Assembly: GCA_026985515.1 (NCBI GenBank)
Contig: JALSQH010000229.1
Coordinates: 1-7,352 of the forward strand
Source: a bacterium
GTDB lineage: Bacteria > JALSQH01
Direction: 5' to 3'
DNA length: 7,352 bases
This document shows, in pieces, positions 3,254 through 6,558 of the stretch; the first letter of the stretch is position 1, and every line of letters begins with the position of its first letter. The position numbers were made by a program, and so were the translations under genes. The notes beneath the pieces are model-generated. The model was not told the origin of the DNA and did no database searches. It saw only the letters and a program-made list of their open reading frames with translations.

Positions 3254-4477
3254 TCAGGTATAGTGGTAGAGTTTTGTGAATAACCTTCTGTAAATAACAA
3301 TTCTCTGAATCTGGCCAGTTCCCTCAAATATATCAAACACCTTTTGATCCCTGTAAAGCTTTTCCACGAGGTTGTCTCTCTCAAGTCCATCTCTTCCCAT
3401 TATTTCCAGTGCCTTACTGGTAACTCTCTGGGCCACATTGGCTGCATAGGCCTTGCTCATTGATGCATGTTTTGTATTTGGCTTTCCCACATCTCCCATC
3501 CAGGCAGCCTGCCACACGAGATATCTCGCAGTTTTAATTTCTCTATCCATTTCCACCAGCAATTCTCTGATCCTCTGATACCTGGGAATGGGTCTGTTTA
3601 TCATGTAATTTTCATTAATCCACTCAACAAGCCGTTCATAGGCAGCTCTTGCTATTCCCACAGCCATCGCCGCCACAAGTGGTCTGGTCTGGTCAAATGT
3701 TTTCATCGCTCCCTTAAAACCACCACCTTTAACCTTTTTTTCATAATACTCCTCTCCTCCCAGCAGGAAGTCTTTATGAACTCTGCAATCCTCAAATATC
3801 AGCTCAGCAGTTTCAGCAGCTCTGAGACCCATTTTCTGCTCAATTTTACCTACCTTAAATCCAGGTGTCCTCTTAAAAACAAGAAAAGCCCTGTGACCTG
3901 CTCTTCCAAGGGATTTGTCAATTGTGGCAAAAACCACATTCCAGTCTGCCCTTGCTCCATTGGTAATAAATATTTTTGTTCCATTGAGTATGTAGTAATC
4001 ACCATCTTTAACAGCTGTTGTGGAAAGAGCAGCAACATCTGAGCCAAAACCAGGTTCAGTCAATGCGTAAGCTCCCCAGTGAGGATTCTCTGTGTCTTTA
4101 AAAACTTCAAAAGCCATTTTCTGCTGTTCCGGGGTTCCCATTATCATAACGGGAGGTCCACCAAGCCCTGGACCGGGAATGTTGAGCAGTATGGCAGGAT
4201 CACCCCAGGCAAGCTCTTCCATGGCAATGGCACCAATTCTGTTTATTTCACTTTCCTTCTTCTTTCCTTCAGGTTCGCCAAGAAGTTTCCCTCCACCAAA
4301 TCTTCCGGGAATGGATCCTCCTCCAAACCCCATTTTAACAAGTTTCATCAAAAATTCCCTTGGAACCTGATGGGTTCTGTCAGCCTCTATTGCAAGGGGT
4401 CTTATTTCTGTTTTCGCAAACCAGTGTATCATTTCCCTTATGTTCTGCATAGCTGGACTCAATTCAAAATCAAACAT
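3254..4477 (-). CDS. Acyl-CoA dehydrogenase, catalytic (Glu-bearing) subunit of a predicted heteromeric pair
   Basis: This 407-residue flavoenzyme of the acyl-CoA dehydrogenase family desaturates an acyl-CoA at C2-C3 and normally passes electrons to ETF. It has a helical N-domain (about 1-135), a beta domain with the flavin loop YALTEPGFGSD (137-147) and GTKIFITNGA (166-175), and a helical C-domain. The catalytic base is Glu385 in DIFEGTGQIQR (382-392), the MCAD Glu376 position. The segment that reaches FAD in the neighbouring subunit is degraded: R..FG has become N290..I293-N294, and Q..GG.G has become EIMGRDG (358-364). The upstream paralogue keeps both. Start: ATG 4477 is preferred because GGAGG (4486-4490) lies 8 bases upstream; it is one base after the previous stop. 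An in-frame ATG at 4492 would add five residues but has only a weak site. The stop abuts the convergent gene's stop. The substrate is unknown; the FDQTRP helix (261-266) departs from the common DGGR pattern. Confidence 0.9.
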   Translation of the reverse strand: MFDFELSPAMQNIREMIHWFAKTEIRPLAIEADRTHQVPREFLMKLVKMGFGGGSIPGRFGGGKLLGEPEGKKKESEINRIGAIAMEELAWGDPAILLNIPGPGLGGPPVMIMGTPEQQKMAFEVFKDTENPHWGAYALTEPGFGSDVAALSTTAVKDGDYYILNGTKIFITNGARADWNVVFATIDKSLGRAGHRAFLVFKRTPGFKVGKIEQKMGLRAAETAELIFEDCRVHKDFLLGGEEYYEKKVKGGGFKGAMKTFDQTRPLVAAMAVGIARAAYERLVEWINENYMINRPIPRYQRIRELLVEMDREIKTARYLVWQAAWMGDVGKPNTKHASMSKAYAANVAQRVTSKALEIMGRDGLERDNLVEKLYRDQKVFDIFEGTGQIQRIVIYRRLFTKLYHYT

Positions 4478-4478
4478 C

Positions 4479-5633
4479 CTATTTTCCTCCATTTTCTTTA
4501 ACTATGTAGTTTGAGGCAACATCCTCAAAAACAATCAAAGATCCTGCAAGGAGTGACAGAGCCTTTGCATCCCTGGCCCACTTCTCCACTGGATGGTCCA
4601 TAATGTAACCATGACCTCCAAGTACCTGGATGGCATCCGGGCAGATCTTATCTGCAGCCACAGCTATCTGTGCAAGAGCAGCTGCAACATCTCCTATGGA
4701 TGCTTTACCTTCCACCACACTCCAGGCAGTCTCCCATAGATAATCTCTTGCCCCCTCAAGGAGAATGGCCATGTCAGAGATCATAAAAGCAAGACCCTGG
4801 TGTTTTGCTATGGGCTGTCCAAAGGCAACCCTTTCCTGAGCATAATCAATAGCGTACTCAAGTGCCGCTCTTGATGCCCCCAGAATCATTGAAGCGATTC
4901 TCAACCAGAAATAGATGTAAGATTCCTCGAGTGACTTTACGGGGTCCTGACTTCCACTCAAAACTTCTGCCTCCACATCCTTGAACTCAACGACACCTGT
5001 TCTGAAAGAAAGTAAACCTATTTTGTCATCTTTTCTGCCTGTAGTTATACCTGGAGACTCCTTTTTTACAATAAAAACTCTTAATTCTTTCAAATCTTCT
5101 GAACCTTCCGGAAGAGCCAGAACAACATATATATCGTCGTTATCGAAATTATGCACAAAGTAGCCTGTTCCATTCAGAAAAAATTTTCCCCCCTTACTCA
5201 CATACCTCACAGTTACGCTCTCAGTATCGTAAGGATCAAAGGTTCTGTTCCATACCGAGCCTATTCTATAAGAAAAATTTGACGGATCAGAGAATGGTGA
5301 AAGATACTTCACCTTCTGCTCATCTGTACCAAAGAATCGTATAACTAACCCACCAAATCCAGGTGTATCAAGAGAAAGGGCTATTGCAGGGTCTCCCCAT
5401 GCAAGCTCCTCGTAAAGGACTACACTGCTTCTCACATCCATGCCCGCACCACCCACATTTTCCGGATAATCAATAAGAAACATTGACAGCTCTGCATATT
5501 TTTTTTCCAGAGACTCAGGGACCTTCCCTATTTTCTCTGCTTCCCTGGCAATTTCCCTAACCTCGTTCAGGGAAAATTCATGAATAGTATCCTGCACCAG
5601 CTTTAAATCTTCACCCACCTCAAAATTTATCAT
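4479..5633 (-). CDS. Acyl-CoA dehydrogenase-like protein lacking the catalytic Glu, predicted partner subunit
   Basis: This 384-residue protein is full length for the acyl-CoA dehydrogenase fold but has lost the chemistry. The flavin loop that should read TEP..GSD is replaced by a divergent stretch at about 121-140 (YRIGSVWNRTFDPYDTESV). The catalytic position is Ala363 in DAKALSLLAGS (355-365), where active homologues have DAK...YEGT. The alternative base used by isovaleryl-CoA dehydrogenase (just before the helix Arg, here Leu244-Arg245) is also absent. It keeps the motifs that reach across the dimer interface to FAD: ERVAFGQPI (267-275, Arg268, Phe271, Gly272), Gln279 and QVLGGHG (336-342). 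In known homologues these contact the partner's flavin. It is first in the operon, with AGGGGG upstream of the ATG, and the next gene starts one base after its stop. A structural or FAD-supporting subunit is the best reading; a flavin-free scaffold or another enzymatic role is possible. Confidence 0.88.
   Translation of the reverse strand: MINFEVGEDLKLVQDTIHEFSLNEVREIAREAEKIGKVPESLEKKYAELSMFLIDYPENVGGAGMDVRSSVVLYEELAWGDPAIALSLDTPGFGGLVIRFFGTDEQKVKYLSPFSDPSNFSYRIGSVWNRTFDPYDTESVTVRYVSKGGKFFLNGTGYFVHNFDNDDIYVVLALPEGSEDLKELRVFIVKKESPGITTGRKDDKIGLLSFRTGVVEFKDVEAEVLSGSQDPVKSLEESYIYFWLRIASMILGASRAALEYAIDYAQERVAFGQPIAKHQGLAFMISDMAILLEGARDYLWETAWSVVEGKASIGDVAAALAQIAVAADKICPDAIQVLGGHGYIMDHPVEKWARDAKALSLLAGSLIVFEDVASNYIVKENGGK
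4486..4490 (-). promoter_or_regulatory. Ribosome binding site that decides the start of the catalytic acyl-CoA dehydrogenase gene
   Basis: A perfect GGAGG on the minus strand lies inside the last codons of the upstream paralogue. It is 8 bases from ATG 4477 and overlaps the ATG at 4490-4492, so it can serve only the former. The order GGAGG-TAG-ATG implies tightly coupled translation and so roughly equal amounts of the two subunits. Confidence 0.75.
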
Positions 5634-5664
5634 AGCTACCCCCTATTTTGTAAACACTTACTTA

Positions 5665-5693
5665 CTTTTATCAAAAATTGACAGATATGTCAA
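5665..5693 (-). promoter_or_regulatory. Promoter of the acyl-CoA dehydrogenase operon
   Basis: On the minus strand, a perfect -35 TTGACA (5688-5693) is followed after 17 bases by TAAAAG (5665-5670), 4 of 6 to the -10 consensus. A TG one base upstream makes it an extended -10. The predicted start is an A at about 5658, giving a leader of about 25 bases with AGGGGG before the ATG. The -35 hexamer is one arm of the palindrome described separately. Confidence 0.6.
5678..5693. promoter_or_regulatory. Predicted operator, perfect inverted repeat TTGACA-N4-TGTCAA
   Basis: The 16-base element TTGACAGATATGTCAA has six-base arms that match perfectly around GATA. It spans about -35 to -20 of the predicted operon promoter, where a bound dimer would block RNA polymerase. 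TetR- and GntR-family repressors of fatty acid and acyl-CoA genes use palindromes of this size, but no such regulator lies in the window, so the protein that binds is unknown. A chance contribution from the -35 consensus itself explains one arm but not the matching second arm. Confidence 0.55.
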
Positions 5694-5745
5694 GTATCCA
5701 GAACTGCAATCCCTGCTGAAATTAAAGATGAAAAGGGAAACTACC

Positions 5746-6558
5746 CTATTTTGTGACAGGTATATCAAAGAAATCATTCCTGTATCTGTGCCACTTTACT
5801 TTTGAAATCTGCTCCCGAAAAAATGGCAGAACTTTCAGGGTCCAGTGGTATACAATCTTCGCATACCAGCTCCGGGGATGAAGATCATCGAGCCTGGTAA
5901 GATAGGAAAGAGCAGCCAGAGTATTTCCTTCATACGCTTCAAGTTCAGCAAGATCCACATATCCATATGGAAAATCTGGATCTATGGAAATCGCTTCAGA
6001 GAGAAGTTTTCTTGCCTTTTCAGGGTCACCATAACTCACAGGAAAATGTGGTAGTTTGTAAAGGGTCTTTGCAAGAACAATGGCAGGCTCACCATGCAGA
6101 TAGGTTTTGTCCAGCTTATAAGCTTTCAGTAAATAGGAAAGCCCACGAGGAGCAAGATTTAAAACATTCAGAACCCCTTTCATCAAGCCATAAAGTCCGA
6201 GAAAACTGCCTTTCCACAACCATCCATCCGGGTCGCGTGGGAAAAGAGAAGTGGTTTCCTCGCTGAATTTCAACCCAAGCTTCACAGCCTTTTCCTTTTT
6301 ATCTGGCGGTAATACATACCAGTAAAGAAAAGTGTAAATATTACGAAGTCTGAAAACTTTCAGGTTCCTTCTGTCCTTGTGAGCCAGTCTATCAAGGTTA
6401 TCAATGATCCACTTCAAATATGCTGGATTTTCAAGTTGCTTAAATGAGGAAGCAAAAGGTGCTGATGGGGGAGCAAAAAGATCATAGAGCCTTACATCAA
6501 AAGAAAGAAGTTTTCCTGCAAAACTGCATAACAAAATAATCAATATGAACCGTTTCAA
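5746..6558 (-). CDS. Secreted TPR-type protein resembling TRAP-transporter TatT/T-component-like proteins
   Basis: This 270-residue protein starts with a signal peptide (MKRFILIILLCSFAGKLLSF), so it is probably periplasmic. The Cys at 11 does not sit in a good lipobox. The middle has the look of a TPR-like family: DGWLWKGSFLGLYGLMKG (111-128), a helix of the APRGLSYLLKAYKLD type (136-150), then LAKTLYKLPHFPVSYGDPEKA (162-182) and LLSEAISIDPDFPYGYVDLAE (185-205). From memory this resembles the TatT/T-component-like TPR proteins, some of which pair with TRAP transporters, but no transporter gene is in the window. The start is TTG at 6558: GGAGG (6565-6569) lies six bases upstream and no ATG fits the signal peptide. 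It begins 12 bases after the proS stop, so the two are probably co-transcribed. Function unknown. Confidence 0.75.
   Translation of the reverse strand: MKRFILIILLCSFAGKLLSFDVRLYDLFAPPSAPFASSFKQLENPAYLKWIIDNLDRLAHKDRRNLKVFRLRNIYTFLYWYVLPPDKKEKAVKLGLKFSEETTSLFPRDPDGWLWKGSFLGLYGLMKGVLNVLNLAPRGLSYLLKAYKLDKTYLHGEPAIVLAKTLYKLPHFPVSYGDPEKARKLLSEAISIDPDFPYGYVDLAELEAYEGNTLAALSYLTRLDDLHPRSWYAKIVYHWTLKVLPFFREQISKVKWHRYRNDFFDIPVTK

Follow-up and report, generated by a model that had tools for sequence, protein, structure and literature searches.

Two-chain acyl-CoA dehydrogenases (ACADs) are best described in ChsE4-ChsE5 and ChsE1-ChsE2, which are α2β2 enzymes with two sites (PMC8399759, PMC11153573); in these pairs the α subunit holds the isoalloxazine ring and the base glutamate, and the β subunit holds the ADP-ribose side of the FAD (PMC11153573). 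Split ACADs of Gram-negative bacteria comprise Scd1AB, Scd2AB, ScdC1C2, and the ChsE1E2 of Comamonas (PMC8399759, PMC12502768, PMC6678751), and CasC of Rhodococcus jostii is a fused two-domain ACAD in which one domain is needed for FAD and the other has the base (PMC8399759). One paper calls FadE23-FadE24 a complex as well and ascribes to it an activity different from acyl-CoA dehydrogenation (PMC11980559). The most familiar split ACADs are those with which tuberculosis bacteria degrade cholesterol, and the α2β2 half-site design is commonly described as belonging to steroid degradation. Here we describe a pair of adjacent ACAD genes that divides its active site in the same manner and that appears to have come to this architecture separately, in an MCAD/AcrC-like lineage found in unrelated bacteria and with the glutamate at the MCAD position.

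The stretch of DNA that was analyzed, hereafter the window, is an entire contig (7,352 nucleotides) of a 2.36 Mb genome that is 97.6% complete and has about 20 ACAD matches. Gene A (5633-4479) and then gene B (4492 or 4477 to 3254) lie in tandem on the minus strand, at the coordinates given in the initial annotation. The second of the two possible B start codons is the likelier one because a GGAGG (4490-4486), located inside the 3′ end of A, lies 8 nt ahead of the ATG at 4477-4475 (Shine-Dalgarno-like element and start codon together, 4475-4490, minus strand). This ATG starts one base past the stop codon of A, and the translation of A and B is likely coupled. Promoter and terminator scans of the window returned no more than scans of shuffles. 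The adjoining genes within the window are proS and those for TPR proteins and a nucleotide-sugar dehydrogenase; these neighbors give no clue to the substrate, the contig ends with the window, and no etfAB adjoins the pair within it. A reading of the window as a steroid-degradation cluster was ruled out, there being no such neighbor within it. The host envelope is likely of Gram-negative type, because an Omp85 protein is encoded in the genome. Among the relatives compared, one genome is of the same family as the host and all others share only its domain, so the host comes from a very thinly sampled lineage; in that sole other same-family genome, which is 80% complete, nothing matches B with an E value as low as 1e-82.

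Both proteins are full-length ACADs with N, M, and C domains by Pfam. Protein A (384 residues; 4479-5633, minus strand) yielded a single-chain AlphaFold model with a pLDDT of 82 and an ACAD fold, for which the best PDB match is SCAD (8sgs; Z 39.9). The model of protein B (412 residues, or 407 from the likelier ATG 4477; 3254-4492, minus strand) has a pLDDT of 81 and best matches MCAD (4p13; Z 50.9). Heteromeric ACAD entries are absent among the PDB matches listed for A and B. Based on their translations, Pfam domains, models, and clade membership (99/99 for A, 99/98 for B), A is a putative β-like subunit predicted to make ADP-side contacts to FAD, and B a putative α-like, catalytic subunit. 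In NCBIfam the closest profile to B is the acryloyl-CoA reductase AcrC (309 bits, far under its cut-off of 640), with PimC at 58.7 bits (below its cut-off of 624); A scores below cut-off with PimD (57.7 bits; cut-off 653) and IpdE2 (43.5 bits; cut-off 450).

The motifs of the active site, all on the minus strand, were compared with those of human MCAD (Arg281, Phe284, Gln349, and Glu376). B has an intact flavin/substrate loop, TEPGFGSD (residues 145-152 from ATG 4492; 4037-4060), and the catalytic Glu390 within FEGTGQIQR (3323-3325), with NYMIN (295-299; 3596-3610) in place of the RxxFG of complete enzymes and EIMGRDG (363-369; 3386-3406) in place of their QxxGGxG. A carries Arg268 of RVAFG at the position of MCAD Arg281 (4830-4832), together with Phe271, Gly272, Gln279, and QVLGGHG (residues 336-342; 4608-4628) in the region of MCAD Gln349/Gly353; its flavin loop has decayed to VWNRTFDPYDTE (5220-5255), where active enzymes have xLTEPxxGSDxx, and Ala363 (4545-4547) occupies the catalytic Glu position, MCAD Glu376. 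The spacing equals that of human MCAD in both chains: 68 residues from R to Q and 27 from Q to the Ala363 position in A, and 95 from N to E and 27 from the Q-equivalent to E in B. The alignment bears out every residue that the initial annotation had listed as kept or lost in either protein, its Glu385 being our Glu390, since it was counted from ATG 4477 and not from 4492. The two co-encoded ACAD chains show complementary loss of FAD-site motifs; both have the fold and domains of a homomeric MCAD-type enzyme, but neither carries the full set of motifs for FAD binding and catalysis.

Homologs of B with 46-65% identity occur in genomes of many other families, and the majority of them are immediately preceded by an A that shows the mirror-image losses. 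In one alignment, all 31 B-type proteins have the Thr/Ser-Glu and the Ser-Asp of the loop as well as the catalytic Glu, one has the Arg, and none has the Phe or a Gln at 336. The 27 A-type proteins invariably have the Arg, the Phe, Gln279, and Gln336; the loop Ser is present in one, and Glu in five, these being group ii proteins that retain it at or near the base position. Among 17 complete homomeric ACADs in the same alignment, the Arg and the loop Ser/Thr are found in all and Gln336 in 16. Because homologous pairs in many unrelated genomes split the residues alike, the partition is more than chance.

A profile built from 19 A proteins was run against 386 genomes. Its 23 top-scoring places (≥388 bits), 7 of them outside the training set, all adjoin a B; because A evolves fast and ordinary ACADs intermix under a score of about 388 bits, lone divergent A genes in that range might escape notice. 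Two lower-scoring, untrained matches, L161 and L163, each adjoin a B as well. Homologs of the upstream gene regularly found apart from the downstream one, which the initial annotation had named as evidence against an obligate heteromer, were sought in this search and not found. With A itself as the query, the contigs of named organisms that were scanned gave ordinary ACADs only.

Some genes among the B-homolog loci have no adjacent A. Each genome of family f70 (G341, G070, and G211) has two A and two B genes, the non-adjacent A being elsewhere in the genome; these trans A proteins have intact Arg/Gln motifs and neither the loop nor the Glu. An adjacent A is also absent at the B-type genes G150:C6:174192 and G151:C6:2538, which may share another A, and the B gene on G151:C29 is at the contig end. 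L065 (7807-9111, minus strand), a member of the B clade that is partnerless at its locus, carries every motif on a single chain and appears to be a self-sufficient relative, the exception expected of such an enzyme. Its sister is a split B at L064 (774-3299, minus strand), where the loop of the A partner is still only half decayed (ALTEGDAGAN); the two may represent intermediate steps toward the split. Such pairs are also present in G057 and G151, whose phyla are represented by one or two genomes each; a wider search in those phyla found nothing further.

Pairs resembling FadE23-FadE24 of Mycobacterium tuberculosis (Rv3140-Rv3139) in Nocardia, Rhodococcus, Tsukamurella, and Acinetobacter, A. 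baumannii included, show the same partition and fall into the same A and B clades; as in the window, their upstream ACAD is predicted to be non-catalytic and the downstream one catalytic. The window pair forms a distinct subclade, with 26-28% identity to them in A and 37-40% in B, and the actinobacterial A proteins have an N-terminal extension (455-458 residues, compared with 384 in the window). The actinobacterial gene order is hisN, A (455-458 residues), and B (407-413 residues), and by order, size, and the adjoining hisN these loci are probable FadE24-FadE23 pairs. The mycobacterial FadE23-FadE24 complex is thus probably part of the A/B lineage. Within this lineage, of which one member is then probably known already, the window pair appears to branch deeply; its architecture is known, its origin separate. 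A FadE24-FadE23-like pair also lies on plasmid p5 of Rhodococcus sp. DN22 (NZ_CP133331.1; L092, 10349-12966), followed within about 8 kb by genes for a cytochrome P450, an FAD oxidoreductase, and a propionyl-CoA synthetase. Two PLSDB "plasmids" of chromosome size, NZ_LN868939.1 (2.66 Mb) and NZ_CP104448.1 (4.09 Mb), are almost unannotated and seem to be whole or partial chromosomes.

ChsE4-ChsE5 (FadE26-FadE27), ChsE1-ChsE2 (FadE28-FadE29), IpdE1-IpdE2, Scd1AB, and PimC-PimD are half-site heteromers of two ACADs, as the window pair is predicted to be. The fold, motif spacing, and base position are those of MCAD and the AcrC-type reductases; MCAD, however, unites all motifs in a single chain and forms four sites per tetramer, whereas in the window the motifs are divided over two genes. 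CasC differs in being one polypeptide, and a CasC-like fused two-domain protein of Nocardia farcinica (L122, 5434-7968) falls on the steroid side of the tree. The initial annotation had suggested a Gram-negative counterpart of the FadE-type design or else a separate origin; the split design itself stands, but it is not new to Gram-negative bacteria, for which Scd1AB, ScdC1C2, and the Comamonas ChsE1E2 are known (PMC8399759, PMC12502768).

A and B are very probably the two subunits of one heteromeric, FAD-dependent ACAD with one site per pair and an origin independent of the ChsE and PimCD pairs. The obligate heteromer proposed in the initial annotation is supported in sequence by the conserved pairing, the strict residue partition, the compensation in trans, and the tree. 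For assembly, FAD count, activity, and electron transfer to ETF, we infer the following scheme. The assembly would most likely be α2β2 with two FAD. B would bind the isoalloxazine and the acyl-CoA, and its Glu390 (385) would abstract the α-proton; A would be non-catalytic, its Arg/Phe/Gln residues and Gln-x-x-Gly-Gly reaching the ADP portion of the FAD bound to B. The reciprocal site, with loop and Glu position from A and Arg and Gln positions from B, would be dead, which would leave one working site per A-B pair and no active homomer of either protein. Electrons would presumably pass to ETF. The pair would go back to a self-sufficient MCAD/AcrC-like ancestor that was duplicated and whose two copies then decayed reciprocally, in an event separate from the one behind the ChsE/PimCD-type pairs.

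Since adjacent genes divide the motifs alike in the steroid enzymes, with the same logic as in ChsE1-E2 and Scd1AB (PMC8399759), the window pair might be a Gram-negative ortholog of the FadE26-27, FadE28-29, IpdE1-E2, or PimC-PimD family. Trees of 85 and 42 rows were computed with the four motif regions removed, and groups were named by motif and not from the tree; N. farcinica pairs from one steroid genome stood in for the M. tuberculosis FadE pairs, and PimC/PimD, outside the trees, were linked to the steroid lineage by profile scores alone. In the 85-row tree all A proteins form one clade (99/99) and all B proteins with L065 another (99/98), and the two clades are sisters (90/92; 99/95 with 42 rows). 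The steroid-type α and β of N. farcinica form sister groups (99/92; 99/97), apart from A/B. AU tests on the 42-row set rejected trees in which all α (p = 7e-5) or all β (p = 0.016) were forced together, within the limits that long branches and the single steroid genome set to the test. The best profile for the steroid α subunits is PimC, at 180-214 bits, compared with 59 bits for window B, which scores 309 with AcrC. Glu at position 376 is present in none of 7 steroid α subunits and in all 31 window-type B proteins. These lines of evidence make orthology to the steroid family extremely improbable and favor the separate origin. Because the trees, AU tests, NCBIfam scores, and position-376 Glu set the lineages apart, the sequences indicate that duplication with reciprocal decay occurred at least twice.

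Were A instead a catalytically dead paralog that acts as a regulator or moonlights, B would be an active homomer with altered FAD contacts, as its intact loop and Glu and the few B genes without an adjacent A would allow. B-type proteins, however, have lost the Arg/Phe/Gln contacts almost without exception, and it is these very contacts that A retains; the lone B genes of f70 are matched by trans A genes, and the partnerless L065 has a complete site; this possibility is very unlikely. The pair could also be a heteromer with other chemistry, either a different flavin reaction or acyl-CoA reduction of the kind carried out by AcrC/CarC complexes. In its favor are the rank of AcrC as closest NCBIfam profile, even far below cut-off, and the single report on FadE23-FadE24 activity (PMC11980559); against it, the loop and Glu are complete in B, the pair has no etfAB beside it, and related pairs adjoin genes for acyl-CoA ligases, CoA-transferases, and thiolases. 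We consider such chemistry unlikely and retain the heteromeric acyl-CoA dehydrogenase as the preferred reading.

A second split pair lies on contig C122 of the host (locus L066), where two ACAD genes overlap (4107-5561 and 5510-6550, plus strand). One product has the loop and Glu without the Arg/Gln motifs, and its divergent partner has RFQGG and QVMGGYG with neither loop nor Glu. The same partition is present in G186 (L179), G306 (L181), and G150 (L182). In the tree the α and β of this type are two further clades that group with neither A/B nor the steroid pairs, and a third origin of the design is likely here but, because of the long branches, not firm. We lean slightly toward the broader view that self-sufficient single-gene enzymes gave rise to split-site ACADs, by duplication and reciprocal decay, on three or more occasions (in the steroid/PimCD, A/B, and C122 lineages), with A/B as a broad class that is not specific to steroids and whose intermediates, L065 and L064, are still present. 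The A/B lineage offers a natural replicate of how a homomer turns into an obligate heteromer. It also carries a warning for annotation, as many genes labeled merely "acyl-CoA dehydrogenase" may be inactive halves that need co-expression with a neighbor.

Homologous pairs elsewhere adjoin genes for AMP-ligases, aldehyde dehydrogenases, thiolase-fold proteins with ChsH2-type zinc-ribbon/OB proteins, CoA-transferase III, SDR, MaoC, or SCP2 proteins. Since pairs lie in such acyl-CoA catabolic clusters, some members of the lineage may plausibly help to degrade bulky or unusual acyl-CoAs; no catabolic neighbors of that sort lie beside the window pair within the window. At L091 (5288-9356), genes for thiolase-fold and ChsH2-type zinc-ribbon/OB proteins adjoin A-B or B, as do thiolase, SDR, and MaoC genes at L062 (6512-11057), and both modules bear a partial likeness to the steroid C3 side-chain module (ChsE1E2-ChsH1H2-Ltp2). 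A recurrent cluster of a luciferase-like monooxygenase, a zinc alcohol dehydrogenase, and an A-type ACAD was read by eye at L088, L172, L173, and L174; at L088 it additionally contains an aldehyde dehydrogenase, a ligase, and a thiolase and has the appearance of a catabolic module.
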